A stretch of 64,000 nt of DNA from Diplonema papillatum (taxonomy: Eukaryota; Euglenozoa; Diplonemea; Diplonemida; Diplonemidae): positions 152,908 through 216,907 of the forward strand of contig JAPJBO010000350.1 in NCBI GenBank assembly GCA_030068145.1, given 5' to 3'. The notes under the pieces are model-generated. The model did no database searches. It was not told the DNA's origin and was given only the letters and a program-made list of their open reading frames with translations. A program made the translations under genes and the position numbers. How positions within the stretch are numbered: position 1 is the first letter of the stretch; the number at the start of each line of letters is the position of its first letter. Positions 11,458 to 56,882 of this stretch are shown piece by piece.

Positions 11458-12130
11458 TCAGTCCGGCGTTTGCGCAAACCCGAACCTTTTTGCCCAGTCC
11501 GGCGTTTGTGCAAACCCGAACCTTTTTGTCCAGGCCGGCGTTTGTGCAAACCCGAACCTTTTTGCCCAGGCCGGCGTTTGTGGAAACCCGAACCTTTTTG
11601 TCCAGGCCGGCGTTTGTGCAAACCCGAACCTTTTTGTCCAGTCCGGCGTTTGTGCAAACCCGAACCTTTTTGCCCAGTCCGGCGTTTGTGCAAACCCGAA
11701 CCTTTTTGTCCAGTCCGGCGTTTGTGCAAACCCGAACCTTTTTGTCCAGTCCGGCGTTTGCGCAAACCCGAACCTTTTTGCCCAGTCCGGCGTTTGTGCA
11801 AACCCGAACCTTTTTGTCCAGTCCGGCGTTTGTGCAACCCGAACCTTTTTGCCCAGGCCGGCGTTTGTGCAAACCCGAACCTTTTTGTCCAGTCCGGCGT
11901 TTGTGCAAACCCGAACCTTTTTGTCCAGTCCAGCGTTTGTGCAACCCGAACCGTTTGCCCAGTCGGGCGTTGTGCAAACCCGAAGCTTCTTGCCGGTCCG
12001 GTTTGTCCAACCCGAATTGTTTTGCTCAGCCTGGCGTTGGTGCAAATCCGCACCTTTTGCCCAGGTCCGGCGTTGGTGCAAACCCGAACCTTTTTGTCCA
12101 GTTCGGCGTTTGTGAAAACCCGAACCCGTT
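11458..12130 (+). repeat. 36-bp minisatellite, about 18 copies
   Basis: The unit is GTCCGGCGTTTGTGCAAACC followed by CGAACCTTTTTGTCCA. Copies vary at a few sites (GTC/GCC, CAGTCC/CAGGCC, TGTG/TGCG), and the last four or five are degenerate. Because 36 is divisible by three, the array stays open in several frames on both strands, giving 12-residue repeat frames. I read these as artefacts. Nothing at the borders suggests an expressed gene. Confidence 0.95.
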
Positions 12131-12395: not shown

Positions 12396-12849
12396 GACGA
12401 ATTTTGAATTCTCAAAAATACCAAAAAAACGGTAGAGAAATGTCCGGGGTGGGGGTACCCCCACGGCCTGCCCCAGAAAAGTGGGATAGCTCGCTAGAGA
12501 GCTAAATTGAGAATTTCAATTTACCAACCTCTAGACTCGGATAAATGCTTTTTGTTTGCTCACCCCCCATCGCTCTTTTTTCATTCGAAAAATATCCTAC
12601 AGGGCTGGCGAAGACGATGTGACAGAAACGCACTGGAAACCCGTGTCTTGCCAGCACTGGGAAACCGCTCTCGACAACCTGGGCGTCGCTGACCATGCAG
12701 GATAAGCTTGCTGTTGGGGGGCAATCCTATTTTCCTCTTTTCGGGGGCAGCAGTATGAGAGAATTGAGGAGACGGGATTCTCTTCGAAAGATGGTTCCTC
12801 ACACTAACTTGCCTCTCTCTCTCTCTCCCTTTTTTTTTTTTTTGTATAA

Positions 12850-13065
12850 GCACCTGCTTTGTAAAAAATACTTGAGGAGGCTGCCAGCTGCAAAAGATCA
12901 AAGGAGGTAAATGTGCTGTAGCCCACACGAAACACAGGTGAATCTGGGTTCAGTGGCGGGCATAAACGTTCAACAAAAAAGACCCACTTTGTAGTTGTAT
13001 TGTTTCTCCCCCTCTAGCCTCCTTCGAAGCACAAAGCAGCCCCTCGAGTATTTTGTGCCGTCCTC
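12850..13065 (+). repeat. Dispersed repeat family, copy 1 (about 200 bp)
   Basis: The shared text is CTGCTTTGTAA/GGAAATACT ... GGGTTCAGTGG ... GACCCACTTTGTAGTTG ... CCCTCTAGCCTCC. Other copies are at 22142-22332 and 54232-54425. One at 60292-60690 is interrupted by a small MITE, and a partial copy lies at about 57390-57475. No coding capacity or terminal repeats were seen, so the class is unknown. Confidence 0.85.
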
Positions 13066-13138: not shown

Positions 13139-15147
<2,009 letters not shown>

Positions 15148-15771: not shown

Positions 15772-17497
15772 CGCGTCGACGCGTCGAGAAATGATGCGGC
15801 GAAGACGTGTCAGAGTGGACCAATGCACAGCGGCCGGCGTTGGTCATGACTGGCCAGATCCTGATCAGCCACGTTGGCCGGTCATTGACCGACATCAGAT
15901 TCTAGCCGATTTGTGGTGCATTCTCTTTGCACACGGCCACATGACCCATCATCGTTCAGGACTGACTGTCGAGCCTGCCAGGAGGGCCGGTTGTCGACTC
16001 TGTTGCATGGGCTATGGACTTCTTGAATGGATCGTCGACGTGGGTCGGGGAAACCCTTCGCGAACGGATAAATGTTTGAACACGAGTTAGTGATGGGCCT
16101 GGCTGAACCCGGAACGGCCAATACTTACACTTGCAAACAAGTGGGGCACATTGTCAAAGTCTGTGCAAACTAGCTATCTCGAGCCGTTTCCTGGCCGGTA
16201 ACATGTCGTTTGCGCGTCAACAGCTCAACCGGTTCGTGTAGCGACATGAAAAGGTCAAGGGGGGTGGGGAAGGTAGGGTGTTTCCGTTGCTGCAGCAGAG
16301 GCCACAGGCCGGTCTCCGCTCCTTCCTCCCGCTGTCGTCGGCTGCTTCCCCAAGGCACCATTTCCATGGCGCTTTGGAGGGTAAGTGAGCCGCGTGAATG
16401 CAAAACTTGTAGACTGTTCTAATGGCCACAAACCTCTATGCTTCGTCGCCGTTTTTAAAGCGGCAAACCGCCCGCAGCGCAAGTTGGAAACGCCTCCTTC
16501 CAGTTGCCTTCCCCTGACGGGGAACCCACTTGACTTGACACACACTCTCTCTGGCTGAGTTTGGTGGAGATTCCATTCGTTACGACCACGTCACCCCTAA
16601 AACTGTCAGGTGGGCCAGGCTAGATCAGGGCTATTTGGAGGGACAGGGGCGGGACCCGGCTCAGGCTAGAATCGGGGTGGCTACTTGGGAGGGACAGGGG
16701 CGGGGGTAGTCACGCCTCAGCAGTCCCAGGGCTTCTCCCCACCCACCTCTAGGTGTTCTCGTCGTCATCGCTACCGCGCAGAACACATGAAGAGGAAAGA
16801 AGAAAATAAGAAGAAGAAAAAGGCCGCTCCTGGTCCAGGGACGTGACGGTCAACCACAGCTTGCAAAGCTTTAGTCGAAGGCAGCACCGTGCCACAACCC
16901 CGTCCGCTCTGCCCTGCGGCTGACCGTCTCGACGAGCTTGTGTTCACCGCGAGCGCCAAGCCCCAAGGTGCGCCACGCCTTGATGCTTTAGTTTGGAAAA
17001 TCGGTAGCCACTTGACCCGTGGACCCGTGGCTCTGCAGTACCGCAGAACACGTGAAGCTTGGCTCCCGTGTAACAGGCCTTCCCTGGTACCTCCGAGAAC
17101 ACATGAAACAAGTCAAAAGGCGTGGCACGTCACCGCGGAAGCGGAAGCGGAGGCAACGAGGTCCCTTGCGTGAAGGTTCGCCAGCTGTTCTCCGGACGGC
17201 ACACACAGCTAGGACACAGGACAATCTTTCTGTCGTTCCGGGCACCCAGGTCCCCGCCTCATTCCGAGGACAGCTCACCAACCAAACCGAACGCCAGGTG
17301 TCTTTTTCCGCCCTCTCCAACCCCCTGACCACCCTCGTCCAGCTCCCCCGTCTCTTTACTTCCCTCTTCGTTTCGGGTACTTTCTGCTCACGATCGTGCG
17401 GTCCTGGAGTTTCGATTCCAGTTCTTCCGTAGTCAGGGAGGAAGATACCGATTAAAGAAGGTGCAGACCCGTTTTCACATTTCTGCTGCCTGGCAAT
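15772..17497. other. Intergenic region before the BILBO1-like gene
   Basis: No gene is supported. It contains a roughly 280-bp dispersed repeat at 16812-17090, with its partner at 53880-54165. The rest has no recognisable feature. Confidence 0.5.
16812..17090 (+). repeat. Dispersed repeat, about 280 bp, copy 1
   Basis: Matches 53880-54165 on the same strand nearly base for base, including CGTGACGGTCAACCACAGC, CACAACCCCGTCCGCTCTG and ACACGTGAAGCTTGGCTCCC. Both copies start in a purine-rich AAGAAAAAG tract. Short open frames run through both, but neither shows a domain. Class unknown. Confidence 0.9.
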
Positions 17498-22141: not shown

Positions 22142-22332
22142 AAGCTCCTGCTTTGTAGGAAATACTCAGGAGACCACCATTGGCAACGTCTCAACGGAGG
22201 GAAATATGCAATAATCACCATCTGAGTTGAGTGCAAGCATTCAACAAAAAAACAGACCCACTGTTGTAGTGTTTCTCTCCCTCTAGCCTCCGTCAAAGTA
22301 AGCACAAGGCAGTCCCTCGAGTATTTTATTCT
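22142..22332 (+). repeat. Dispersed repeat family, copy 2
   Basis: Shares CTGCTTTGTAGGAAATACTC, AGACCCACT and CCCTCTAGCCTCCGTC with 12850-13065 and 54232-54425, in the same orientation. Confidence 0.85.
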
Positions 22333-39773: not shown

Positions 39774-41241
39774 ATGTCAGTGTGGGAATGCCCGTCTTGC
39801 ACGGTACACAACGAATTGGAGCATCAGACCTGCCACCTGTGCCTCGAAAAGAAGCCGTCCTCTGCGGCTCAAGAATGGCTCGAATTCTTCGACCCCAAGC
39901 ACAACCTGCCGTACTACTACAACGAGGCGACGAAGAAGACCGTGTGGACCCTCCCCGCCGGCGCCGTCGTCCTGAACCCGGGCAAAGTGCGGCGCCCCGC
40001 CGACCAGCCGCCGCGTGGCGGCGCGTCCAACCGCGTCGGGTCCCCGCCGGGGTCCCGGTCGCCCGGCGGCCGCCGCGAGGCCAACGGGAGCTCGGGCAAC
40101 GGCAGCAACGGCTGGCTGCGGGGCGGTTTGCTGGCCAGGGGGTACCCGGGGGGCCGCCTGCAGGGGGCGCAGCGGGCGGAGCCGGCGACGGTTGATGCGG
40201 CGGCGCCGGCGGCCGACGGCGGCGCGCCGTGGAACTGCCCGGCGTGCACGTTCTTCAACGTGGCGACCGACTCGTGCTGCGCGATCTGCAAGACGCAGAA
40301 GAAGGCGTCCATCCGCGCGGCGCAGGTGCGCAGCGGGCACAGCGGCGAGCCGGGTGTCGAGCCGTTCTCGCCGGTGGGCGAGGGCAGCCTCGGGTTCTGC
40401 TTCGACGAGCAGAAGCGGGACTGGGTCAAAAAAGTAGAGCAGCTCGAGCGCGAGCTGGCCGGCAAGCGCGCGACGTTCGTGGACGAGACGTTCCCGCCGA
40501 CGATCACGAGCGTGTACGGCACGGACATGGAGACCCTCGGCTCGGCGGACGACGGCATCGGCATCCTCGAATGGAAGCGATGCTCCGATCTGCGCGGCGG
40601 CCGTTTCCACGGCGTGAGCTCCAAGCCGTGGCGGCTGGCCGACCGGAAGGCGGACGGCTCGCACGAGCCCGTCTTCTCGTCCGGCGCCATCGCCCAGGGA
40701 CAGCTTGGCGACTGCTGGTTCCTCTCAGCGTTGGCGGTCGTGAGTACCCGGCCCGAGCTCATACGCCGCATCTTCATCTCCCAATCGTTTTCGCCCCAAG
40801 GCATCTACTGCCTCCGGTTCTGGCACAACGGCGTGTGGACGCCTGTCCTCGTCGACGACTACTTTCCTCAAAACTTTCGGTGTGTTGTTTCTTCGATTCC
40901 TATTGATTACCACCCCCCCACTCCTCCACATATGTCGCGCGCTTTTGAAGCTTGTTGTCTGTTTCTACACTGCTTCAAGCGCTCATCGCCGGCGAACTCA
41001 CCTGGCGCCATTGCATTGGAAGCACTGCCGAACACGTGCGACTCTGCTCCGTGTCTTTCCGTTCCTTGTAACGATCAGTCATGCTGAATGGCCTTGGGGT
41101 CATCTGGGGTTCAGCTCGCAGAAAAATAAAGGGGTATTTCCGAAGTCGAAACCCAACACAGGGGCGGCTTCGCGTTTGCAACGGGGAAGGACAACCAGCT
41201 GTGGCCCTCGCTCGTCGAGAAAGCGTACGCGAAACTGCATG
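39774..41241 (+). CDS. Calpain-type cysteine protease, exons 1-2 (zinc fingers, WW, catalytic Cys)
   Basis: Exons 39774-40879 and 41162-41241 (junction phase 2) encode residues 1-396 of an 830-aa protein completed by exon 3 at 54837. Residues 5-23 and 154-172 are RanBP2-type zinc fingers (C-x2-C-x10-C-x2-C: CPSC...CHLC and CPAC...CAIC). Residues about 35-61 are a WW domain (EWLEFFDPKHNLPYYYNEAT ... VWTLP). A Gly/Ser/Pro-rich linker separates the modules. The calpain core starts near 235, with catalytic Cys314 in AQGQLGDCWFLSALAVV. Exon 2 carries NQLWPSLVEKAYAKLHG, a hallmark calpain segment. Zinc fingers of this type often bind ubiquitin or RNA and WW domains bind Pro-rich partners, so this protease probably has targeting modules. 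No penta-EF domain is present. Confidence 0.94.
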
Positions 41242-41729
41242 GTATGCATCTCTGCTGCACGTTTTGTTGTTGTATACCACTCATTCCACGAAAAGTGTCA
41301 CAGATTTTCCGTCTGAAAAGCAGCCCGTTTTGGATCAAAATTTTGGAATTTTTGGGAAATTATTTTTAGCCACATGCAATGTGTGAGGAAACTGAACCGC
41401 CCAAGTAGGACCTTCTGATCATGATCATTTGCCAAATTTGCCACCTGAAACCACGTCCAGGATTTGGGCTCAGGGTAGTGCGGTCAACGAAATCGAACAA
41501 GTGCAGAAGTCGTACAGCTGTTGGAAGGGAAGCAGAGACGGTGCGAGGTCAGAGCAATACCAAAACTAGACTGGCACGGGCGAGCCTCACGTGACCAGTG
41601 TTCGGAACACGTCTGACACTCAGAGCGAGGAAGGGCGAATGCGTGCTTTTCTTCTTTCTCTCGGCGCGTTTTCTGCAAGGGCGTTTCTGATTGGGAATTC
41701 GTGGGGGGAACTCATGGGGGGGGGGGGCC

Positions 41730-42717
41730 GCATACATCCGATCCGACTCGTATGCGAGAATGATTCTCGCATTCTCGCATGAAATTCTCGCATATTCTCG
41801 CATGCGAGAATGATACGAGTGAAATGCGAGAATGTGTAAACCACTCAAGAACCATGTATTTGACCCGTATTCGAGGCACCGACAGGAATACCAAGTGAAG
41901 ATAGCAAAATAACGAAATAAGGCTACGCCAACTGCAACGTTGCAGCTGGCATTGTGCCTTGCTTTCAGGACGCAATACGCCGCCGACAACAACTCTGGTT
42001 GCTCCATGGTATTGCTTCAATGCTTGAATAGTGGTCGAAAACACGCTTCACAACAAGTGCTCCGCAAGCCACTGTGTCTGCAGCTTCTCCTGCTGCGGGT
42101 TCTTGTGTTTACTTCTACGATTTCCTCTGCCACAGCTCGTTTCGTGAAGCTGTCGGCTAACGTTCAGTTGCTGCTGCCAGCTTTTTGAATAATTGACCTC
42201 GGGGCCACCTTTGCAGGTGCATTATTAGGTTGCAGGTTCTCTGGATGGCAATCGTTCACAGGTACCTTGGAATCCAGCGAGCCCAGCGACAGCGAGTCAA
42301 GGAAACCTATTCCACAAATAACGCTAAAAGCACAAGCAAACGGTTCCCGAGTTCACAAACAGCTTTGAAAGCCTGCATCCACGAACAGACGAAACGAACT
42401 GTGGCAGTGAAGGCAGAGGAGGAAAGGAAAGTTTACTACACAGAGGAAGCAGCAGCTGGTGAAGTTGGGAGGCCCAGTGGCGGCAAAATGCGCCGCGGAA
42501 GCCTCGGAGACGACCTAAAACGTTGACTCCTGCCGGGTTCTCATGTGTTCAAGCATCCCGTACTGTGAGTTATCTCATTCTCGCATATTCTCGCACGTGC
42601 GAGAATATGCGAGAATCATGCGAGAATTGCGAGAATATGCGAGAATTTTGCGAGAATCGGGGCCGCGACCCCCCAATACGAGAATATGCGAGAATACGAG
42701 TCGGATCGGATGTATGC
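41730..42717. mobile_element. Non-autonomous TIR transposon C (988 bp)
   Basis: Ends GCATACATCCGATCCGACTC and its inverse at 42694-42717 are followed inward by arrays of ATGCGAGAAT/ATTCTCGCAT motifs (41750-41835 and 42575-42690). The middle has no transposase-like frame. The left end abuts a G tract and the right end directly abuts element A1, so no target duplication can be read. Confidence 0.85.
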
Positions 42718-43301
42718 CTAGGGCTATGATGGCAAGTAAACGGAAACGTTTCCCGTTTCCGTTTCCGTTTCCGTTTCCATACTTTCAAGGAAACGGCGTT
42801 TCCTTATTTGGGAAACGGCTGCTGCAGATTGCAGTGTGTAAGGTGACCACACCTCGGATGGGCGGGGGAAAAAAAATTTAGGGGTATTTCTCGACGAGCC
42901 AGCAAAATAAATGTATCTGTGCAAACGGTGCTGTCTCCGACGTAGTCCCGAACTGCGCGGTCAACATCCTGGTGGCAACCAAGCACTCAGAGAATTGGGC
43001 ATGGTGACCACCCCGTTTATTTTCTCGACGAGGTTCGTATGCACGACATTATTTTCGGTTTTGGCTGCAAGTTAACACACCCTGTGCGGGATGTGAGCAG
43101 CCTCAGAAGCTGAAGTTAAAGCTGGAGTTAAAAAAGCGGCGCTTTTCGGGTGTGACTCGGGCGCCCTCTTCAACTCCGACTTCTGGGGCTGGACTTCACC
43201 GTGTAGTATCCCCTGGTGGTGTTAGCGTGGTTTGTGCGTTTCCGTTTCCATGTTTTGGAAGAAACGGATGGAAACGCGTTTACTTGCCAACATAGCCCTA
43301 G
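42718..43301 (-). mobile_element. Non-autonomous TIR transposon A, copy A1 (584 bp)
   Basis: Ends CTAGGGCTATGATGGCAAGT and ACTTGCCAACATAGCCCTAG are inverted repeats (about 25 bp, one mismatch). Subterminal arrays of the hexamer GTTTCC lie just inside. The interior shares GCTGCTGCAGATTGCAGTGTG, GGTGACCACACCTCGG and other blocks with A2 in inverse orientation. A fragment of the CACGGTGA MITE sits at about 43100-43203, at the same internal place as in A2, so it predates the spread of A. Confidence 0.9.
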
Positions 43302-43458
43302 GGGGGGGGGGGGGGGCGGGGTGGAAACTAAGTCTGAGCCCAAAAACGAAGTTGCAAACCTGGGGGGGGGGTGGGTACCCCCCAATTTTTTTTTTCTTGG
43401 TCGCTGCTGAGGAAACCACCTTGGAGCGGTCACCACCCTGCTGCACACAGGCCCTGCA

Positions 43459-43492
<34 letters not shown>

Positions 43493-44000
43493 CTAGGGGG
43501 GGGGATACTAAGCCTGAGACCCAAAACGAAGTTGCTAACCCTGGGTGGGGGTGGGTACCCCCCCCCTACCCCCCCCCCCCCTCCTGGTGCAACCCACTGT
43601 GGACCTACTGTGGGACCCACCTTAGCTAAATTCTCTAAGGTGAAATGGTGGAAAAAGTGGGTCAAAAACTTTTTTTTTCGAGTGCTTTTTTGGGAGGATT
43701 TGGGCCAAAAAAAAATTTTTTTTTTCTTGGTCGCTGCTGAGGAAACCACCTTAGAGCGGTCACCACCCTGCTGCACACAGGCCCTGCAGGAGGGGGGGGG
43801 GGGGTTTAGGGGGGGGGGGGGTACCCACCCACCCCTCGTTGCCGTCCGGCTGACAACGATGCCGAGTTTAGGGGCCTTAGCATCAGCACTGGGGGGGGAC
43901 CCACCACCCTCGTTGCCGTCCGGCTGACAACGATGCCGAGTTTAGGGGCCTTAGCATCAGCACTGGGGGGGGGGTAGGGGGTAGGAACCCTTAACAAAAT
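43302..44000 (+). repeat. G-rich low-complexity region with duplicated blocks
   Basis: Runs of up to about 30 G alternate with repeated blocks. One block of about 80 bp (TTTTTTTTCTTGGTCGCTGC through GGCCCTGCAGGAGG) occurs at about 43385 and 43715. A 60-bp block (GCCGTCCGGCTGACAACGAT ... AGCATCAGCACTGG) occurs twice at about 43840-43970. G-runs of this size may fold into quadruplexes and are prone to assembly error. Confidence 0.85.
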
Positions 44001-45630
44001 ATCGTGATTTCAGGTTTTTGGACTTTTTTCAACAAGGGAACACGCACCCGCCCTGTGCACCCCCAAGGATGGGCCCTCCACAGTGTTTCTCGCCCGGAAA
44101 AATGTTCAAAACGCTCTGCTGGCTGTTATTTTCGCGCCGAAATGCATTTTTGAGCATTTTTGGTCTGTGGACATTCTGTGGACAAAATCCGCCGACTTTC
44201 CTCTGGAACCGGAATTTTTTTTTGGGACTGAATTTGCCCATCTAAAAAGTCACTATTGGGCTGATTGTGGGTCAGAGTGCACCCATGAGCGATGGAACGT
44301 GGTAAAAATACACTTTACACGAGGCGAGCGTCGCAGAGTGGAGGGGTCGCATAATATTTTCCGGCGCCACCGGCTTGAAAAACGGAGTTCGCACGAGAGT
44401 TTGAGAGAGTTTTGGTGCCGAACATGAACGATTTTCACACCCTCGGAGCTTCTTCGTGACCGAACCGACCGGGAAAATGACTTGGGTTGCACCAGGTTGT
44501 GACCTGCGGGCCAAAAACGCTGTTTAGACGCCGGTATTGATGGTGCAACGGTACAGTGACGGTAGAGTGACGGTAGAGTGACGGTAGCGTGACGGTAGCG
44601 TTACGGTAGCTCTGTGGAAGCGTGAAAATAGCATAGTGTGTGCAACAGCAAGCAAAAAAAATGTCAATCCACCAGCATTGCTCAGAATGCCATGCGAAAT
44701 TGACTTCTCTCACGTACAACGATGCCGAGTCCCAATTTTTGCTGGCCAAAACGCAATTACAAGAGGTGAAAGAGGGAGGAGGATGCACCAGGTCACGGTC
44801 GAACCGTGCAGAAGGCAAGAGCAGATACAATGAAGGACTTCAGGGCTCAACACAACGATTCCGAAAGGCCGGTGGGCGAAGAAAGTTTGTGAAAGCCTCC
44901 GCCATAGGACCAGGAAGACGCTCTGGTGAGGTGGAGTACAAACGAGCTGGAAAACCTTCTTCAGAAGTCTGTGCAGATGAGCAAGTTAAGTCGACCCCGT
45001 GGGTTGCTTGCACTGCAGTGCTGGTGTGGTCATGCCTGTGGGTAGCCGGGACGTGGCTTTGGACCAGCACGTTTGAACCCGGCTGTTTGGCTGCTGCCCT
45101 GGTCCCGACGTTGCGCACGCCAACACAGCAGCATCCCTGGAGGCCCCCACTCGTTTGCTGTTTCTGCGGCGGGGCTGGTGTTGTCGTGTTGGTTGGCGAG
45201 CATACTTCAGTGGCACCACCGGACGATCACTGCGGGTCCGTTGGCACTTGCTCTGCATCTGGAGCACTTCTTTTCCGACGGCGCAGTCGCAAATGCTGAT
45301 CATATTGCTTGTGAATGAAGCAATTGGCTCATTTTCCTGGTAGTTTGGGCCTGTTTGAGTCCTGGGGCCGCTACTTATCTGAAATAGAAGCTGATCTGGC
45401 ATGCTTGTCGATTTGTAGAAATGGGCCATGCCTGCAACACCCCATTTGAGGTCATTTTTGACCCGAAAAGTGCCACTTTATCTCATTTCCTCCTGCTTTG
45501 TGGCCAGCCAGCGCCCGAACGGGGCACTATTTTCGGTTTCCTGACCGTTTTGGGCCCACACCACTTCATTTTCACGACCTTCTTCACCAAATGACCAAAA
45601 ACACGAATTTTTCACCCGGGTTCCTACCCC
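44001..45630. other. Intron segment between the G-rich block and element A2
   Basis: Includes a short tandem repeat of about 11 bp (GACGGTAGAGT and variants, 44545-44615). No gene or mobile-element end was recognised. A frame at 44640-45299 shows no domain. Confidence 0.4.
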
Positions 45631-46655
45631 CTAGGGCTATGTTGGCAAGTAAACGCGTTTCCATCCGTTTTTTCCAAAACATGGAAACGGAAACGGAAAC
45701 GGAAACGGAAACGGAAACGGAAACGGCTCCTTGGTTTTGCAGGCTACCCACAAACCACGCTAACACCACCAGGGAATACTACACGGTGAGGTCCAGCCCC
45801 AGAAGTTGGAGCTAAAGAGGGTGCCCGAGTCACACCCGAAAAGCGGGTGTGTCACCCGCTTTTTTAACTCCAGCTTTAACTCCAGCTTCTGAGGCTGCTC
45901 ACATCCCCGACAGGGTGTGTCAACTTGCAGCCAAAACCGAAAAGACTGCCGCGCGTACGAACCTTGTCGAGAAACTGTACGGGGAGGTCTCCAGGCCCAA
46001 TTCTCTGAGTGCTTGGTTGCCACCACTACGAAGGACCGCGCAGCTCGGGACTACTTCGGAGACAGCACCGTTGGCACATATAAATTTGTTTTGCTGGCTC
46101 GTTGGGAAATACCCCTAAAAATTTTTCCCCCCGCCCATCCGAGGTGTGGTCACCTTACACACTGCAATCTGCAGCAGCCGTTTCCCAAATAAGGAAACGC
46201 CGTTTCCTTGAAAGTATGGAAACGGAAACGGAAACGGAAACGGGAATTGTTTCCGTTTACTTGCCACACGGTGGACTTACAGGGGTCCCTGTATGCTGTG
46301 GCTGTATGCTAAACTACCTGTATGCTACAGCATACAGCCTGTATGCTACAGCATACAGCCTGTATGCTGTAGCATACAGCTGTATGCTGTGGCATAGCAG
46401 ATTCCTGTGTTTAGCGGTGGTGTGGCGGCTTGCGCGCGCCAGAGATGGCACTAGGGCAGCGCTGGGCCGTGTATTGGCGTGTAAGTGGCATCCCCCTGCT
46501 TAGTTTACGAAAACCTGTCGTTTACTGGCCATCTACGTACGCTACTATTTACATTCACTTGCGTGCTTACCAATCTGCCATCCATCACTGCTTCAGCTCA
46601 TTGTGATAAACTCTAAAATAGTAAGAGTCAAAAAGAAAAAGAAAAAAGACAAGCA

Positions 46656-47594
46656 ATGTCAGCGAAGCAGCAGACACCAGAAGCTAAAGCGGGGAAGCGC
46701 AAAAGAGAAGAGCAGTCTTCCTCGCCCAAAGTGCCGAGGAACGACGCCATCAACGCCTTTGTGGCACTGTTCCTGAGAGAAGACCCGGAAGGTGAAATCC
46801 GGATGCCGGCTCTCAGGAGCACCATCGAGAAGATGGTTGCTGGAGCCAACAGCAGCAACAAGGACGGTGCCCTGCAGAAAGCGGTCACCGGCAAGTGGAA
46901 ACCCGTCGAGATGAAGGCAACCGAGGTGAAGGAGATGCGGGAAGGGGGGGATGACCTTCCCTCGATTTACAAAGTGAGGGGGGCGAACGAAACCGTGTAC
47001 CACGGTATCTGCGTGCGTACAAGGGTTGACAAGCGAGCAGCCGGCTACAAAGCACATGCCGCTGTCCTCGAAAAGACCCTTCTGCCGGGCTATACCCTCG
47101 AAACCAACGTCGCTGATATCTACCGCGGGGCGGTACAGCAAATTGCCCCCGGCGCGGAAGCAAAGAAGAAGTACCCCCTGCAAGTTCGACGAGGGAAGGT
47201 CGGCACCGACTACGTCACCATCTTGGAGACGGGGTTGGGCTCCGTAAGCGATGAGGCCCCAAGCAGGACAGGGCACAAGGTGTCCCTGAGCATTGTAAGA
47301 GATGTGGGCGGGGACGCCGACATCGGATCTGGGACGTTTCCAGTCACCGTGAACGTCCCCCTGAAGTTCCGAGTGAGCCCGAACGCACCGCCAAAGGTCG
47401 TCGACAAGAACGGTGTCGTGTTGGTGTACGTGCCGCTTACGGAAGAAGTGGAAAAGGTTGTGACAGCGACCGTCGAGAGGGACGCGAAAACATGGGAGCT
47501 TCCCGTGCCGGAGTCAAAGACTGATTCGGACGGTGAAGGCCCGGAAGGTCCACCTAGAGGCGCCCTCTTCGACGATGACGACTCTAGTTCGTGA
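46656..47594 (+). CDS. Transposon B accessory protein, function unknown
   Basis: A 312-aa intact frame inside element B, starting MSAKQQTPEAKAGKRKREE. The N-terminus is basic and the C-terminus very acidic (DSDGEGPEGP ... DDDDSSS). The middle is a mixed alpha/beta-like composition with no recognised domain. It lies upstream of the transposase candidate on the same strand, which resembles the two-gene layout of some CACTA elements (an accessory DNA-binding protein plus transposase). That analogy is inference only. Confidence 0.6.
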   Translation: MSAKQQTPEAKAGKRKREEQSSSPKVPRNDAINAFVALFLREDPEGEIRMPALRSTIEKMVAGANSSNKDGALQKAVTGKWKPVEMKATEVKEMREGGDDLPSIYKVRGANETVYHGICVRTRVDKRAAGYKAHAAVLEKTLLPGYTLETNVADIYRGAVQQIAPGAEAKKKYPLQVRRGKVGTDYVTILETGLGSVSDEAPSRTGHKVSLSIVRDVGGDADIGSGTFPVTVNVPLKFRVSPNAPPKVVDKNGVVLVYVPLTEEVEKVVTATVERDAKTWELPVPESKTDSDGEGPEGPPRGALFDDDDSSS

Positions 47595-47884
47595 GATTTG
47601 CCCCCTCCCTGGCGGTACTATCTTCTTCTGACCATCACTCTTGCTGCTTTTCAATTGCTCGCAACCACCCGGTTCTCATCGTGACCTTTTCTATCGGGTT
47701 CGCTTTCGCATTGCGCAGTCTTTTCTGTGCTCCGTAAAAGCTTGCGCCAGGACTTCCTGCAGGGTCCTGTTCAGAACTTTTTTTTCCCCCCCTGCGGGTT
47801 TCCGCGGTCGCCATACTTTTTGGGATTTTCGATGGCGAAGAGGAGTTCAGCTTGTTGGTTTACAGTTTCTCGTCCCTTCCAGTT

Positions 47885-48151
47885 CAGTTAAACAACACCA
47901 CGGTGCGCGAGAAGTGTTGGTCACATGCATACGTGGCCCATGTTGAGGACACACGGTACCAGTGCAATCACTGCAAGGCCGTGTTTTCCGCAGCATCGAT
48001 GAAACGGGTCAAGGATCACCTAGTCACTTGCTCGCGGTATCCGGAGACCGTAAGCACTTGGGCGCAGCACGAGCTGGACAAGGCAGCTGCAGATCTGAAG
48101 AATAAGGAAGACGAAACGACAGCACAGGGTGCGAAAATGAAGCAGACATAG
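47885..48151 (+). CDS. BED-like zinc-finger frame within transposon B
   Basis: An open frame of about 88 aa that may be an exon or a remnant. It contains YQCNHCKAVF ... VKDHLVTC, a C-x2-C ... H-x3-C pattern like the BED finger of transposases, followed by a charged helix. No good ATG lies close by, and a possible acceptor (TTCAG) is just upstream near 47885. It could be the N-terminal DNA-binding exon of the downstream 615-aa protein, but I could not build an in-frame join with confidence. Confidence 0.4.
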   Translation, partial: QLNNTTVREKCWSHAYVAHVEDTRYQCNHCKAVFSAASMKRVKDHLVTCSRYPETVSTWAQHELDKAAADLKNKEDETTAQGAKMKQT

Positions 48152-48441
48152 ACGAATGTAAAGGTAGCGTATTTGAAGGTCATCCACAAGTGCGACGATG
48201 GGAAGAACTCCAGATCCATTCAGCACCATGGGGTGGCTCAGCGACGGGCGGCGGGTGAACAGGCAGTAGATATCGACAGAGAGGAGTCTGATGCGAAGGA
48301 AAAGCCGAAGTGAGTCCAGTTGAGACCCCCCTGTTTTATTCTAATTCCTCCGCAAACCCCAGGCCATACCCCCAAATTCTGAAAACGCAAATCCTGGAGA
48401 AGCGCTGAAAAAAAAAATCAGAAAAAATCGTGTGAGAAGAA

Positions 48442-50289
48442 ATGAGCGCGCCAAAACGTCAAAGAACAGAACATGTGTCTGCTTCAGCTGTGGGTGATGG
48501 CATCGCTGCGGCCCGATTCAGCAGAAGGATGTCGATTCGCGATTGTGCTGAACTAGGCACTGCGATCAGACGAGAAAGCACCAGTCGGGGAGAAGGATCT
48601 CCAGCGCTGGGCGTAAGCCGGGATGCGATGCGCAAGCGCGAAACCGAGCTGACACAAACGGCGGACAGCCTGATTGGCAACTTCGTGAGGGTGTTTTGGA
48701 CAGCCTACGACACGATGGCAGACAAGTCCGACCTGCCAGTTCAACTCGCTCTTGTTGGTGACGGCTACACACCGGGAAATGCTTTTCGGTGCTGTTCTAG
48801 GTACCGCCTGGCCTTGGGAATCACGAACAAGAATAGTTCGAGTTTGCTGTTCACTGCAGTTGACAAGCAGAAGCGGGATTACTCGAGCTGGGCAGCCTTT
48901 TCGCTACCCGACGAGATCAAGGCACTGCGAGCGGACACCAACGCACCCCTGCGGATACACGGCGACCACCTTGACAAGTGGTCTTACTTTAAAGGAATGG
49001 GGGGCAGAAGCCATCGTTCCGTGTACTGTACTACCTCTGCACCGAATTGGCTGAAGGAACTGTACATGTGCAAACGACTCTCTGTCGAAGAACTGCACGA
49101 GCATGGGTTCCACTGTCACCTTATTAGCGCTCTAAAAGGTGATTGTTATTTAGTAAGTCCACCTCTGCACGACATCAAGGGGATCATCTCTGCAGTGTTT
49201 CGGCTGTCCCCAAACGGGCAGAAGGCGCAGCGGGGCGTGGCAAAAAGCGAGAAAAACGCAACGGGTAGTCAGGCCAGGGACATGGTGCGCTGGGTGCTCC
49301 ACAACTCGACAGTTTCATCCGAGCTGCTCATCTCCCAAGCTTTGGAGTGCCTGGTCTATTTCAGATACAACGACGTGCCATTGTACTACCATTGGCGCCA
49401 ATCCAAAAGTAAGTACTTCGTACTTGGTTTGCTCTCGTTCCACGCAGTCATTGTCATTCTGGAATGGGCGCTTCCGGGAAGTACGTGGCACAAAGCAGGA
49501 ACTTACTTCCACAGTGCATCGCACTGGTTTGATCCAGAGGATGTAGCACCGCTTTGCCTGTCAGATGAAGCGTTCGAGAGGGAGAATGGGGAGAGAAAAG
49601 CTGTTGTAGCGAAGTGCAACCAACACCACATCGAGCGCGACCTCATGAAGTTTGAACTCGGCAGGAAGCGCAATGCACAAGCCAGCCTACCGAAAAGTAA
49701 CGCGAAGCCTGACATTGCAAGCTGCGGTGCTGTATTTTTTCACAAGTGCCTCACATGCGGAAGAAGAAATGTTGACCAAGAAGATAGACGTCGCGAACTT
49801 CGGACACTGACTTCAAACCTCCAAACGCGACTCACAAAACTTGGTGTGAGGCACGTGAGAAACTCCTCGGGAATGAAAGTCTTCCTCCCTAAAGGTGAAG
49901 ACAGTGATGCTGTGCACACGTTTTGTGTCTGCGACGAAGAACCCTGGGAAATCCCCGACGCAACTGTCGCTGATGTAGTCGGCAAAACAGAGGATGATCC
50001 AATCCCTGGCGACCAATGTCTCATCTGCAGATGCTCTTTTCCGGATCTGAAATCCCTCTACGCGCACTACGACCAGAAACACCGTGAGAATAGCAACAAG
50101 CCTTGTCCTCTCTGCAAAGGAAAGTGCAAAATCTGCTGTAGCTCAATCGCAGTGCGCGGCTTATCACAGCATTACTTCTCCAACCACAAGGGAGAGCTCA
50201 CCCCGAACTGCTGCCCGTTGTGTTTTGAAAGGTTACCATCGCAAACAGCCCGCGACAAGCACGTCCGTGAAGTGCACAACGCGCAGTGA
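48442..50289 (+). CDS. Putative transposase of element B with C-terminal zinc fingers
   Basis: An uninterrupted 615-aa frame. Candidate catalytic-core segments are LALVGDGYTPGN (Asp at about 107), LRIHGDHLDKWSYF (Asp at about 175), SPPLHDIKGIISAVF (about 240-254) and a Glu around residue 302. The PLHDIKG block resembles conserved blocks of large DDE transposases. The C-terminal 180 residues are Cys-rich: CLTCGRRN near 437, then C2H2-type fingers CLICRCSFPDL ... HYDQKH, CPLCKGKCKICC and CCPLCFERLP ... HVREVH, presumably for DNA binding. The frame is intact, so the element could be recently active. The exact superfamily and the acidic triad are inferred, not demonstrated. Confidence 0.65.
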   Translation: MSAPKRQRTEHVSASAVGDGIAAARFSRRMSIRDCAELGTAIRRESTSRGEGSPALGVSRDAMRKRETELTQTADSLIGNFVRVFWTAYDTMADKSDLPVQLALVGDGYTPGNAFRCCSRYRLALGITNKNSSSLLFTAVDKQKRDYSSWAAFSLPDEIKALRADTNAPLRIHGDHLDKWSYFKGMGGRSHRSVYCTTSAPNWLKELYMCKRLSVEELHEHGFHCHLISALKGDCYLVSPPLHDIKGIISAVFRLSPNGQKAQRGVAKSEKNATGSQARDMVRWVLHNSTVSSELLISQALECLVYFRYNDVPLYYHWRQSKSKYFVLGLLSFHAVIVILEWALPGSTWHKAGTYFHSASHWFDPEDVAPLCLSDEAFERENGERKAVVAKCNQHHIERDLMKFELGRKRNAQASLPKSNAKPDIASCGAVFFHKCLTCGRRNVDQEDRRRELRTLTSNLQTRLTKLGVRHVRNSSGMKVFLPKGEDSDAVHTFCVCDEEPWEIPDATVADVVGKTEDDPIPGDQCLICRCSFPDLKSLYAHYDQKHRENSNKPCPLCKGKCKICCSSIAVRGLSQHYFSNHKGELTPNCCPLCFERLPSQTARDKHVREVHNAQ

Positions 50290-50594
50290 AAGACCTGAAC
50301 AGGGTCTTGCTTTCGAATGTTTTGCTCACAAATGTCGTATCGGTGCGCTTTCCCCTTTTCTTTTTTCCAAGTTTCCGGTCGCTACTCACTGGAATCTACT
50401 AGAACTTGAACGTTACAGCTTACAGCTGTATGCTGTAGCATACAGGCTGTATGCTGTAGCATACAGGCTGTATGCTGTAGCATACAGGCTGTATGCTAGG
50501 AGCATACAGGATTCCTGTATGCTGTACAGCATACAGGAACCCCTGTAAGTCCACCGTGCATCATAGCCCTAGGGGGGGGGGGGGGGGGGGTGTG

Positions 50595-52668
50595 GGGCTA
50601 ATTTATTCCGGGGTGGCTTTTTTCCCGACTTTTTTTCCGACTTTTTTATTCCGGGAGGTGAAAATTTGTTCCGGGAGGTGAAAATTTGTTCCGGGAAGTG
50701 AAAATTTGTTCCGGGAAGTGAAAATTTGTTCCGGGGAGGGCTTTTTTTCTGACTAATTTGTTCCGGGAACTGAAAATTTGTTCCGGGGTGGGCTTTTTTT
50801 CTGACTAATTTGTTCCTGGGTGAGTTTTTTTTCATTTCTGGGCTAAAAATGGCTGACACGATCAGTGAGCCTCCCAGAAAAAAAACTCACCCCGGAACAA
50901 ATTTTCACTCCCCGGAACAAATTTTCGCTTCCCGGAACAAATTTTCAGTTCCGGAACAAATTTTCACTTCCCGGAACAAATTTTCAGTTTCGGAACAAAT
51001 TTCTCCTCATTTCACGGGACCCGGACCGAACCTAGAACTGGGGAGGACTGGGCTGACAACCCAAGGTGGCAACAAACGGAATCTGCACTCCACATTACAT
51101 CACGCAAGAATGGCTGATTCCTTCCTGAAGTCACCGACTGTCTTTGTGCCCACAGGAAGCGCGAACTGAACGCAAGGACCTTCCAGATGTGGAACACTGT
51201 ACGGAGAGAAGACCACGCAACGGAGCAGGCGCCCACAAGTAGTTTCTAACAGGACTAATCCCTCACACCGAAGTGATCATGAGTTGCCTTAACGAAACGA
51301 ACCTTGTGGAGCTGAACTCAGGCTGATAGGTGGGCCTTCTACAAAGTTAGCACCGGTCAGCAAGTAAACGTATCCGACCCCTGGCACAGAAGGCACGCGG
51401 TGGCTATCGGTAAACTGCATCGCGCACTCAGACAGACTTCTTGGAACCCCTTCCCACGGTCAGTAACTTGGACGACAATTACACTGGACGAACGCAGGAA
51501 ATGACGAATATCCTCGAGGCTGTCGTAAACTCTCTTCTCAAAAAATAATAAAATACATAGGGTCAAAAGGGCACCCCCCGAAAAAAAAAAAAGACTCCAG
51601 ATACGCAAACTCTTTCGAACGCTGCACACGGGTATCCTTCAAGTGACCTCTAACTATCTGTTGCATACGCGTATCCGGATCTGAAAGCCGAAGACTTTGT
51701 AACACTTTACCGCAACCGAAGTCGCGAACCGGGTTCGGCTTGCACTGCAAAAGCAGCATAATTGTGTCTTGCGCCCGAGCGCGGAATTCCGCCACCCGCC
51801 ATTCGGCTAGAGTGCAAGAACACAATTGCGAAGCGTACTACAAACGGATAGTGTTACATAGGCGAACGAATCATGCGAGAACCTATGGAGGGGCCCCTCG
51901 ACAGCTTTCAGAACACGGCATAGTAAGTCAAGAGTCGGATAAGCGAGTGTGCACATTCTACTCCCGTTTGATCTGCATTTTCCACCTTTCCCCCCTTTCT
52001 TTGATCTGCTGTGTGTATTTGAAAAACGTTATCGCATGCGGGAAGCGGGGTTTGCGGGTTAGGGTTTGCGGGGTTTGCGGGTTAGGGTATGCGGGGTTTG
52101 CGGGGTTAGGGTACGCGGGGTTGCGGGGTTCGGGTATGCGGGTTTGCGAGGTTAGGGTATGCGGGTTTGCGGGTTAGGGTATGCGGGTTTGGGTATGCGG
52201 GTTTGCGGGGTTTGCGGGTTTGCGGGTTAGGGTTTGCGGGGTTAGGGTACGCGGGTTTGCGGGTTCGGGTATGCGGGTTTGCGAGGTTAGGGTATGCGGG
52301 TTTGCGGGTTAGGGTATGCGGGTTTGGGTATGCGGGTTTGCGGGGTTTGCGGGTTAGGGTTTGCGGGGTTAGGGTACGCGGGTTGCGGGTTCGGGTTTGC
52401 GGGTTTGGGTATGCGGGTTCGGGTATGCGGGGGGGGTTCGGGTATGCGTACCTTACACAAAAATTGTAAAAATCACACACAAATGGTGAAAATCTGGAAA
52501 ATTTGGCAAACCCCAAATTTTCAGTTTCCGGAACAAATTTTCACTTCCCGGAATAAATTTTCACTTCCCGGAACAAATTTTCACTTCCCGGAATAAATTT
52601 TCACTTCCCGGAACAAATTAGTCGGAAAAAAAGCCTGAAAAAAAGCTCACCCAGGAATAAATTAGCTC
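50595..52668. mobile_element. Non-autonomous foldback element D (about 2.1 kb)
   Basis: The left end GGCTAATTTATTCCGGGGTG and the right end CACCCAGGAATAAATTAGCT are inverted. Subterminal arrays of a roughly 22-bp unit (TTCCGGGAAGTGAAAATTTG) run forward at 50640-50800 and inverted at 50890-51005 and 52515-52620. The interior holds a telomere-like array (52040-52445) and no coding frame. The extra inverted block at 50890-51005 suggests a rearranged or nested structure. Confidence 0.75.
52040..52445 (+). repeat. Telomere-like TTAGGG-containing tandem array
   Basis: About 400 bp of degenerate GCGGGTTAGGGTAT / GCGGGTTTGCGGGG units, with around ten GTTAGGG motifs. A higher-order repeat of about 135 bp is visible: the text starting TTCGGGTATGCGGGTTTGCG near 52128 recurs at about 52264. 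The ORFs it produces in all frames are artefacts. Confidence 0.9.
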
Positions 52669-52866
52669 GACCCGGGGGGGGGCAGCCCGCCGTGCGCACG
52701 TTGTGGGCCCGAGTCACACCCAGAACGCGTGTGCTACAACCAAAAACGCGTGTGAATCCACACCCGAAAAGCGGGTGCGACGTCCGCTTTTTGAACACCA
52801 GCTTTAGCTCCAGCTTCTGAGGCTGGACTCCGTCTCGCTCGCTTCCCGCTGCCCTCGTATTCGCCT

Positions 52867-52998
52867 GTGCCCTAGTAGCACGGGTGGTCCTGGACGAGCT
52901 CCGAACAGCCGCCTGACAACCCAGACTCACACCGCTGTCCTGTCTGCAGACACTCAGGTTCCGCGCAGATGGTGGTCCGCCTTCTGTGTCCGTGGCGT
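52867..52998 (+). repeat. Dispersed repeat, about 130 bp, copy 2
   Basis: Partner of 6856-6986, in the same orientation. Confidence 0.8.
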
Positions 52999-53164
52999 GC
53001 GGTCAACGAAAACTCTAGTTTCCCTTTTCTACTTTCTCCTACTCTCGCGGTGTACGGTTTTTGGGATGGAAAGAGCTATCCCTGGCGATTATGGGCAAGC
53101 AATCAGCTCGCGTGGCGACGTGCAGATGGACAAAAGGTCGGTTTTGGGGCTGTTTCAAAAAACC

Positions 53165-53250
53165 AAAAAAACGATTTCCGTCGGGAATCGAACCACCGAC
53201 CCTCAAACCCCTGTGGTGTGGTAACCTCGGGACCATGGGCTAAAAAACTG
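53165..53250 (-). other. tRNA-like sequence with Pol III-type boxes and T-run
   Basis: On the minus strand: TTAGCCCATGGT (A-box-like), GGTTACCACACC, GGTTCGATTCC (perfect B-box) and a seven-T run beyond it (53164-53170 region). It cannot be folded into a full cloverleaf, so I read it as a tRNA-derived SINE head or a decayed tRNA. Confidence 0.35.
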
Positions 53251-53464
53251 GCGGGGAAAATTTTTGTTCACTACGGAGTGGGAATTTTGGACTCATTTTG
53301 AGTTCTTCGCAAACGGGCGAAAGAAGCTCCCAGAGGGCAGAAATACCGTCCTGGGACACTGAAAACGAGTAGATGACGATCTCGCACTTTCCGATAAGAA
53401 TCCCAACACTGATCAGGCGCTAAAAGCAAATTTCGGCCCGAGGTTTGGCAACATAGCCTAACGG

Positions 53465-53535
53465 TTACCGCACCCTCCTGAGCCCCTGTATGCTGCGGTT
53501 CGATTCCTTTGGCCCGAACATTTTTTTTTTTTTTT
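53465..53535 (+). other. tRNA-like sequence with Pol III-type boxes and T-run
   Basis: CATAGCCTAACGG (A-box-like), GGTTACCGCACC and GGTTCGATTCC (perfect B-box) are followed by a run of about 15 T starting near 53520. It shares the GGTTACC-CACC and B-box order with the minus-strand locus at 53165-53250. The acceptor stem does not pair. Confidence 0.35.
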
Positions 53536-53879
53536 GCGATTTTTCGGTGTGAAAAGCAGCCGTCTGGAAATTATTTTCGAGGTCTTTTTGGGAAATCTTT
53601 TGGTTTTCGAGTAGTTCTGGGATGCGCGATTATGGGCAAGCTGCCAGCTAGCTCAGTGATCAGTATCTGACCCCCTCCTGGATACAGAGAGAAAAAAAAA
53701 ACCGATCTCCGACCCCATTTTTCGGGTGCCGACCTCCATTTCCGGGGGGTCGGTCAAAAAATTTATCCGACCAAATATTCGGAAAGCCCTGTTCTCAATG
53801 GATTCAATCGTGTCCTCAAAATCTCGAAACCGGCCATTTTCGGACCTGCAGATGGAAATCTTCGGCAGAAGTCCGAAGA

Positions 53880-54165
53880 AGAAAAAGAAAAAGGCCGCTC
53901 CGGGTCCAGGAACGTGACGGTCAACCACAGCTTGCAAAGCTTGAGTCGGAGGCAGCACAGTGCCACAACCCCGTCCGCTCTGCCCTGTGGCTGACCGTCT
54001 CGACGAGCTTGTGTTCAGCGCAAGCGCCAAGCCCCAAGGTGCGCCACGCCTTGATGCTTTAGTTTGGGAAATCGGTAGCCACTTGACCCGTAGGCCCGTG
54101 GCTCTGCAGTACCGCCGAACACGTGAAGCTTGGCTCCCGTGTAGCAGGCTTTCCCTGGTACCCGG
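53880..54165 (+). repeat. Dispersed repeat, about 280 bp, copy 2
   Basis: Near-identical to 16812-17090, in the same orientation. Confidence 0.9.
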
Positions 54166-54231
54166 CAGAAGTCCGAAAAAAGCCGAAGTCTGTGACACTT
54201 TTTCGTGGAATGAGTGATACACTGCCTTAGT

Positions 54232-54525
54232 ACCTGCTTTGTAGGAAATACTTGAGGTGACTGCCAGTTGCGAAACTTGCTGCAGCCCACACGAAACACA
54301 TGTAAATTTGGGTTCAGTGGCGCGTAGTTCAACAAAAGAGACCCACTTTGTAGTTGCGTTGTTTTCTCTCCCTCTAGCCTCCGTCGAAATGAGCACAAGG
54401 CAGTCCCTCGAGTACTTTGTCCATCTTGATCAACCGGAACAGGGTAACAACGAGTGGGAAAACGATCAACCGGCACGCGCAAGCAAACCAACGCGCCTGT
54501 CTTTTTCGTAGTAACAATGCATTGT
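54232..54525 (+). repeat. Dispersed repeats adjoining calpain exon 3
   Basis: 54232-54425 is a copy of the family at 12850 and 22142. 54425-54525 is a diverged copy of the family at 10645 and 36925. The two families sit head to tail here. Confidence 0.75.
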
Positions 54526-54836
54526 AAACACGAAAGAGCGTGTTTCGGATAAGATTAGCCTAACGAGCATATTCACTCACTTTCATCCACTAGCAGGCTA
54601 ATCCTCCCCCGGCACGTACAAACAAAAATGGCACCTACTCGGACTGATATCCTCGGATGAAGTCAACTAGGGCACAGTGCCCGTTTGCAAGCTACCGCGC
54701 TGCGCGAAGTTTTACGACGGGAAGTTTGACTGCGTGTTTGCCTCGTGCATCATCGCACACCGGTCAGAGCACCGGCACGTTCAAACAAGCACACGCCTAT
54801 CCTTTTTTTAGGTTTTGAAAGACCAACTCCACACAG

Positions 54837-56143
54837 GCTCGTACAAGGCGATCTGCGGCGGGACGGCACGAGACGCGCTGACAGACTTGACGGGGGCGCC
54901 TTGCCATAAGCTGAACCTAGAAAAGGACCCCAACGCTGACGACCTGTGGATAAACCTGATATCCGCGTACACCAGCGGCTGCCTGATGTCCGCCAGCTGC
55001 GGGAAGAAGGGTGCCGAGCGCGAGGCGTACCGGATGCTCGGGTTGGTCAGCAATCACTGCTATACAGTCTTGGCGGTGGAGGACATGGGCAACGGGCTCC
55101 AGTTGGTGAAGCTGCGAAACCCTTGGGGGAAGGAAGAGTGGAAAGGCGACTGGGGGGACAACTCTCCGCTGTGGACGCCCGACCTGCGGAGGCGGGTCAG
55201 GTTCGAGAACAAGAACGACGACGGGCAGTTCTTCATGGCGTTCGCCGACGTTTTGCAGTACTTCTCGTGCATCGACGTGTGCAGAACGCACGAGGACTGG
55301 CACTCCTTCAGCACCTCCGACTGGTTTTCCAAGAAGGCAGCCGGCACCCTCAGCGCGCAGTTCAGCACCGCCTACGCTCTTCGCATCACGACCCCGACCT
55401 GGATCTTCGCCAGCATCGTCCAAAGGGACGAACGCGGCGCCGAGGTGGAGTACCAGTACAAGGACGCCGGAATTGTGATCATCCGCGTCCTGAAAGAAAC
55501 CAGAAACATCCTGAACCCCCTCCACTTCGAATACACGGCGGGCGAGCTTCCCGCCGTTCAACGCATGTCCACCTGCGACGCGATTCTGCACCACGCGGGA
55601 TTATACCTCCTCTTCCCTCTGTCGCTGCTGAACAAGGCCAGTGATCTACCGTACACCCTAGCCCTCTGGTCGAGCAAGAAGGTGTCGGTGGAGAAGGAAC
55701 CCCTGCTCAAAGCGGGGCTCCACCCGATTGTGTCGGCTCTGCACAAAATGATATGCTCCGGCCGGGCGGACCCGAAAAAGGTGGTCCCGTTCCCGGGAAC
55801 TTGCTTGCGGCAGATCCAGAACGCGTACGGCGTGTGGATCCACGCCGAGAACAGAACGAACAAGGTGTTCACCGTGACCCTCGACAGTACCGGGTCGCAC
55901 GGACTCGTCTCTTCGAGGGGGACGTACGTTACTGTCGACACCATCACCCCCGGCGGGTCCATGCTTCTGCAGTGTTTCTCGGCGATCCTGCCCAATGGCG
56001 GGTGGAGCTGGAAGGGGAACCAGAAGTTCGAACTCTCGTCCGCGAGGAAAATTACGCACAACCCCGGCCTCCCTAGCTCAGACCACATACACGCCGAACT
56101 CCTCGATGCTGCAGCCCTCGCGGCTGCCATGGCGTCCACGTAG
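54837..56143 (+). CDS. Calpain, exon 3 (catalytic His and Asn, C-terminal domains)
   Basis: Completes the protein begun at 39774 with residues 396-830. It starts SYKAICGGTARDAL, the normal continuation of the calpain core. Catalytic His469 is in GLVSNHCYTVLAV and Asn490 in VKLRNPWGKEEW, so together with Cys314 the triad is complete and the protease is predicted active. After the core come calpain-type beta-sandwich-like regions: about residues 540-640 (GTLSAQFSTAYALRITTPTW) and a second around 690-810. The tail ends in an Ala-rich helix. No EF-hand calcium domain is present. The long frames on the other strand are GC shadows. Confidence 0.95.
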
Positions 56144-56882
56144 AGCCCCTTACGGTACCTTTTTGGCCCGTACATAGATTGCGACTACACTGTGTCGTGT
56201 TCCTTTGGCTGCGAGCTTATCGGTGCTCGAATTGCGACACCGTTCGAAGTTGGCGATCTTCCGGTTAAAGTTTGCTCCACTTGACATTGGCACTAGCTTC
56301 AGCTTGAAGCTGGAGCTCATCCACACTCCACCGAATCTCGCCAACGACTTCGCACTGTGCCGTGCATCCACAGCATTCCCACAACGTGCCAGATCACAAC
56401 AATTACCCATAAGGTCACAGTGTGGCTATGGCGACCACCCCTCAGACTATTTTCTTTTAGCTGAGATAGCAAGAACCGAGCGTAGCGAGCTTTTTGTGAG
56501 ATGGTTTTATTGTCCAAACAACCACGGCCTGCTCTCTCATTTTCATTTTCTCGCACAAGAAACTGAACCGCCCGAGCCTCAAATCATGTTCCATTGCCAC
56601 CTGAACCAGCCAGGGTTTTAGTTCAGCGAAAAAACTCTAGTTTTCCGACGTTCTTTCACCTGCTCTCTCACCGTGCACGGTTTCGGCCACATGCAATGTG
56701 TGACGAAACTGAACCTCCGGAGTAGTACCTCTGATCGCAATTATCTCCCAAAACCACGGTCTGGATCTCGGTTTCGGTAAACGAAACGTACGCAGAACAG
56801 AGTACAGGCTCTAACCTCCTCGGGACCAACGACTGATTATCTAAATGGGTAGGCACTCGCATTCAAATAGGGGGCTTCCAAA

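Follow-up and report, generated by a model that had tools for sequence, protein, structure and literature searches.

The window, by which we mean the whole analyzed stretch of 64,000 nucleotides, constitutes the final 64 kb of contig C350 of the Diplonema papillatum assembly; the genome searched comprised 271 Mb in 2,910 contigs. Genes with Pfam matches in the window (an AAA ATPase, a DEAD helicase and a calpain) all lie on the forward strand, and searches with ARAGORN and with Rfam at gathering scores returned no match there. The calpain gene is laid out as follows.

39774..40879, + strand: exon 1, which encodes the WW domain and the RanBP zinc fingers and in which Peptidase_C2 begins, C314 included
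41162..41241, + strand: exon 2
41242..54836, + strand: intron 2, 13,595 bp, GT-AG
54837..56143, + strand: exon 3, encoding H469 and N490, stop codon included

When spliced, the calpain forms a single open frame of 830 residues across the three exons, in which Pfam recognizes WW, RanBP zinc-finger and C2-protease domains; positions 1-113 of PF00648 are encoded in exon 1 and positions 143-297 in exon 3. Residues 305-566 align with the m-calpain chain of 1kfu (E 3.4e-48), and the joint between exons 2 and 3 (LVEKAYAKLHG/SYKAICGG) is gapless in this alignment. The preliminary description had proposed that these two exons join in phase over 13,595 bp and that the protein is uninterrupted and keeps its catalytic triad. 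Both proposals were borne out: the GT...AG borders of intron 2 unite the exons in frame, no gap against 1kfu appears at 41241/54837, and the intact triad C314, H469 and N490 was located at these positions of the spliced frame. Intron 1, the sole other intron of the window that was re-measured, is 282 bp long (40880-41161).

Intron 2 consists largely of elements placed inside one another, listed here from the outside inward and then back to the exon.

41277..54217, unstranded: element O with its inserts; an insert-free copy lies at L061:2533-3498
41277-41367, 53058-53877 and 54163-54217: O's own pieces, 966 bp in all
41368..53057, unstranded: insert P, located in a T-run of O and holding the inner nest; absent from L061
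approximately 41368-41729 and 52683-53057: P's own flanks, probably parts of one element
41730..42717, unstranded: element C, inverted ends GCATACATCCGATCCGAC
42721..43298, + strand: mini-element A1, TA on each side
43299..43974, unstranded: G-rich stretch W, unclassified
43975..45633, unstranded: element X, ends TAGGGGGTAGGAACCC
45634..50569, - strand: mini-element A2, inverted relative to A1 and split by B
45634-46266 and 50561-50569: A2's own pieces
46267..50558, + strand: element B, flanked on both sides by CA and having the inverted ends CACGGTGGACTTACAGGGG
46656..47594, + strand: ORF1 of B, 312 aa from the first ATG within a 325-aa open frame
47861..48151, + strand: stretch of B with a BED zinc finger (22.8 bits, cut-off 20.6)
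48442..50289, + strand: ORF2 of B, a 617-aa ORF with C-terminal zinc fingers, candidate transposase
50572..52682, unstranded: element D, bordered by G/C runs, its ends lying at about 50594 and 52669
53878..54162, unstranded: insert R in O, absent from L061; a second copy lies at 16808-17091
54218..54836, + strand: remainder of the intron as it was before insertion, containing a dispersed repeat

The reading of this intron as a nest of DNA elements is supported; the preliminary interpretation as a whole was retained in part. Elements C, A1, A2, B and D, which had been described before, do exist and two contigs agree on them, while the outermost element O had been missed and the earlier list of contents was incomplete, with O, P, R, X and W found in addition. 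Because O, C, A, X, B and D all recur elsewhere in the genome (at 84-100% for the first five families), the elements of the intron are not chance features. Insert P and stretch W are less certain than the other elements.

Element O is a mini-element that brackets 95% of the intron. It has matching inverted ends at 41277 and 54217, and TA flanks it at 41275-41276 and 54218-54219; TA likewise flanks the L061 copy. The L061 copy reads in the order window 41273-41367, then 53058-53877, then 54163-54219, with no inserts, and it is 89.8% identical to O over 991 columns. Since this copy is insert-free, 41368-53057 and 53878-54162 are insertions into O. Subtraction of O and its inserts leaves approximately 650 bp of intron 2. 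The middle piece of O matches at least 38 other places at 89-92% (40 of 5,043 candidates scored). A 26-base form of the O end gave 146 matches (75 + 71) with up to three mismatches and a reversed control gave 0; most of the 30 O-end loci that were read belong to another repeat with the same terminal sequence, and the 146 matches are therefore not a copy count of O. Tc1/mariner-type mini-elements are short, have inverted ends and target TA. O, and perhaps A, resembles them in its shortness, its inverted ends and the TA on both sides. A classification of O as a CACTA element was dropped because of the TA on each side. The left end of P recurs at 56686-56752 (82%). The second copy of R at 16808-17091 is 94.7% identical, and R-like sequence was seen near O-type ends in many fetched loci. 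The repeat in the intron remainder (54229-54420) occurs also at 12849-13056 and 22245-22327, at 77-83%.

A genome search with exon 3 found it twice, once in the window and once on contig C1876, each time at 100%. Contig C1876 (26,760 bp) corresponds to window positions 38230-64000 at 99.76% over 25,792 columns, nest included, and the full alignment contains 33 differing places, 23 of which fall in W (43301-43965). Because D. papillatum is reported to be haploid, one locus may have been assembled redundantly to give C1876 as well, and its support for the structure of the intron is therefore not fully independent. It is very improbable that the locus is an assembly chimaera in which near-identical repeats led to wrong joins between the two parts of the calpain or among certain elements. 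The differences between the contigs and their concentration in W would fit such an error, and the genome paper (PMC10161547) cautions about artificially duplicated or collapsed repeats. However, both places with exon 3 have the same neighborhood, none of the 33 differences falls in the calpain exons, the exons join in frame with homology gapless at the joint, and the insert-free copy matches the interrupted ends of O.

Elements C, A, X, D and B, which lie within P, have copies elsewhere in the genome. Element C occurs, whole or in part, at no fewer than 38 other places with 85-98% identity (40 of 906 candidates scored), and its ends gave 144 exact 18-base matches. For A and X, for which 40 of 3,245 candidates were scored, at least 16 other places at 84-93% and at least 27 whole or partial places at 90-99%, respectively, were found. 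Dropping B together with one CA rebuilds the end of A within A2, and A1 and A2 then agree at 544 of the 585 positions that align without gaps. We also considered A1, X and A2 as a single foldback element; this was dropped, as A and X match separately elsewhere. Copies of D are present at L056 and L059, and the copy at L056:2103-4252 is 96.9% and 90.4% identical over two parts. At L056, D sits within a G-run of another O copy, and the runs flanking it are longer than the run in the D-free O copy of L061. A G-rich tandem array within D (52048-52431), with units like GGGTTTGCGGGTTAGGGTATGC, is somewhat telomere-like, and its copy number differs between the window and C1876.

Element B (4,292 bp) is complete or nearly so at eight places, at 98-100%. 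These eight include both the window and C1876, and the copies on C2035 and C998 have a common flank, so the number of separate loci is lower than eight. The remaining places are fragments or internal deletions; several retain the ends plus small internal pieces (for example, query positions 1-180 and then 2719-2885), a pattern that non-autonomous deletion copies would be expected to show. ORF1 has 14 open full-length copies. Among the 71 of 543 candidates scored for ORF2, at least 10 full-length copies were found, all open, and relatives at 36-41% include sets of equal-scoring places; because these places score identically, recent bursts of the relatives are suggested. Broken copies of ORF2 occur too, for example on C599 and C998. 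All eight ORF2 copies re-read by script are stop-free. They differ from the window ORF2 by 14 codons (a sum over copies, some differences being common to several), each of which changes the residue; as none of the 14 is silent, the comparison gives no indication that selection maintains the function of these copies.

The intron had been said to hold transposase genes, a designation that homology does not establish. Pfam returned no match for ORF1 and, for ORF2, only zinc fingers plus chance-level families, with no catalytic family; Pfam found neither a hAT transposase domain nor a hAT dimerisation domain in ORF1, ORF2, the BED stretch or four ORF2 relatives. Comparison with PHROGs gave nothing for the window ORF2, a best E of 0.046 for ORF1 and a best E of 0.12 for the ORF2 relative at L063. 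A search for viral relatives of ORF2 yielded two pattern-matching stretches, neither of which was confirmed, and phage records gave no match. Against solved structures, a single-sequence search returned four zinc-finger chains, and a profile search returned 28 chains that were weak or of finger type. An alignment of ORF2 with five rows, four of which are two near-identical pairs so that in effect three lineages are represented, contains several invariant D and E residues, and these acidic residues could make a DDE site. The AlphaFold model built from this alignment (mean pLDDT 34.8) is too poor for use. DDE-type DNA transposons in general have inverted ends, a target duplication of constant length and an RNase H-like fold bearing three acidic residues. 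B does have inverted ends. A flanking 2-bp duplication is seen in only four of the seven two-ended copies (L006, L008, L011 and L012), with no clear one at L009, L010 and L024. From its dispersed near-identical copies with inverted ends we infer that B is moved by its own proteins. Judged by the 98-100% identity of its near-complete copies, B appears to be the youngest element of the intron and of an unrecognised type, with no known transposase family matched.

Two families of DNA transposons were compared with B in particular. The hAT elements are DNA transposons with a BED finger and an 8-bp target duplication, and Merlin elements have a target duplication of 8-9 bp. Merlin transposons reportedly occur in kinetoplastids (PMC8101967). 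B resembles hAT in its inverted ends, its dispersed near-identical copies and its BED finger. It departs from hAT in a duplication of about 2 bp rather than 8 bp, in the absence of a Pfam hAT domain, in its separate ORFs and in the G/C runs beside its sites. The likeness to kinetoplastid Merlin lies in the occurrence of DNA transposons in Euglenozoa, whereas the duplication (about 2 bp versus 8-9 bp) and the lack of any Pfam match of B to a Merlin-type domain set B apart.

Runs of G or C are a recurrent feature of the sites occupied by B. All seven distinct two-ended copies, one of them a 1.7-kb deletion copy, have a G/C run of 13-36 nt located 4-13 bp from at least one end. When flanks are counted individually, a run of at least 8 within 60 bp is present at 12 of the 24 distinct ones (11 of 23 without the double of the window locus). 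The corresponding background is 0.9% and 1.9% for two segments of the window and 2.5% (445 of 17,585) for positions in the other loci that were fetched. Element D has a run at 5/5 flanks in three copies. O-type ends served as a control and had a run at none of 15 distinct flanks, which were taken from fetched loci and belong in some cases to the other repeat that shares these ends. For C, 16 of 144 ends have at least 10 G/C within 15 nt, one locus being counted twice; the window alone supplied the few flanks counted for A, with a run at 1 of 3, and for X, with a run at 1 of 2. B and D thus show the pattern clearly and C shows it slightly, whereas O lacks it.

We suggest that G/C runs serve as landing sites. 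Such runs are found at the borders of other elements in this nest too, and elements would pile up as a result. The runs beside B may instead be hitch-hikers, B entering elements that have run-bearing ends without choosing the runs themselves. An A-like end and the G-run that follows it do adjoin B at L006 and L011, at the least, among the seven sites, and C, W, X and D likewise touch runs in the nest; yet the A-like end is absent from the other five B flanks and a run lies within 4-13 bp in 7/7, and we regard hitch-hiking as a doubtful, if tenable, account. As a tentative proposal to which we give less than even odds, B and its relatives at 36-41% could represent an undescribed diplonemid superfamily of DNA transposons that integrates no farther than approximately 13 bp from poly(G)/poly(C) tracts and builds nests in introns. 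Its parts would be a candidate transposase with zinc fingers, a BED finger and a further ORF of unassigned kind, and each landing would mark the next site because tracts also border other elements. Searches of an open-licence library listed no paper that we recognized as describing B or DNA transposons that target poly(G).

Taken as a whole, the arrangement suggests that a spliceosomal intron of approximately 650 bp grew to 13.6 kb through successive nested insertions of DNA elements, while its host calpain gene still seems to be functional; we assign this reading a probability of roughly 85%. The sequence comparisons show that O occupies both margins of the block and is flanked by TA, that P, contents included, and R lie within O, and that B lies within A2. 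Divergence is consistent with the proposed age order without proving it: O is 90% identical to its insert-free copy, A1 and A2 are 93% identical, D is at 90-97% relative to L056, and B copies are at 98-100%. Normal cis-splicing between 41241 and 54837 would presumably remove the block. The same orientation as the host gene had been attributed to the transposon genes in general, but is shown for the ORFs of B only. Since genes are reported to be co-transcribed and trans-spliced, it is conceivable that these sense ORFs gain spliced-leader mRNAs from the host transcript.

The same circumstances bear on whether the calpain is expressed as one mRNA. Poly(A) or spliced-leader addition, or transcription in the transposons, might end or split the transcript, given that this organism adds spliced leaders to mRNAs from co-transcribed arrays and that the ORFs of B are on the same strand as the calpain. 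We consider this unlikely, however, as the 830-codon frame and the triad are intact, the calpain exons are identical in both contigs, and a published intron of 72 kb, the longest validated in D. papillatum, is expert-validated according to PMC10161547.

The published D. papillatum assembly is 280 Mb, and genes in this species are trans-spliced and arranged in unidirectional arrays. The genome paper (PMC10161547) reports that transposable elements reside in introns, that a small percentage of introns are considerably longer and often contain such elements, and that over 60 ORFs resemble those of DNA transposons. Because long transposon-bearing introns have thus already been published, the calpain intron, which does not differ from them in kind, is a good but ordinary example; unlike for the published introns, its layers are resolved element by element and an insert-free copy of the outer element is at hand. 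This one intron houses six families of repeats that have inverted ends, namely O, A, C, X, B and D, and the nest offers a partly ordered series of insertions. B represents a young family whose apparent preference for landing sites can be tested; gene replacement is reported for this organism. A 2025 survey (PMC12278014) cites the diversity of transposable elements in D. papillatum as low and, in 57 genomes of the related trypanosomatids, detected no DNA transposons; the calpain intron suggests that diplonemids differ in this respect. A 2025 proposal derives non-canonical introns of other diplonemids from mini-transposons (PMC12621601).

Several further features of the genome and the window were recorded. 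A 30-mer was used as a query. This sequence, which we take to be the Diplonema spliced leader, gave 643 matches (340 forward, 303 reverse) with up to three mismatches, and a reversed control gave 0. By comparison, spliced-leader RNA genes number about 110 according to PMC10161547, and most of the leader-like matches listed are single and far apart. Such dispersed copies could mark reverse-transcribed mRNAs or elements that target the leader. Upstream in the window, positions 11448-12126 hold 19 copies of a 36-bp tandem repeat that is open in several frames on both strands, and a perfect (AC)218 microsatellite occupies 13140-13575.
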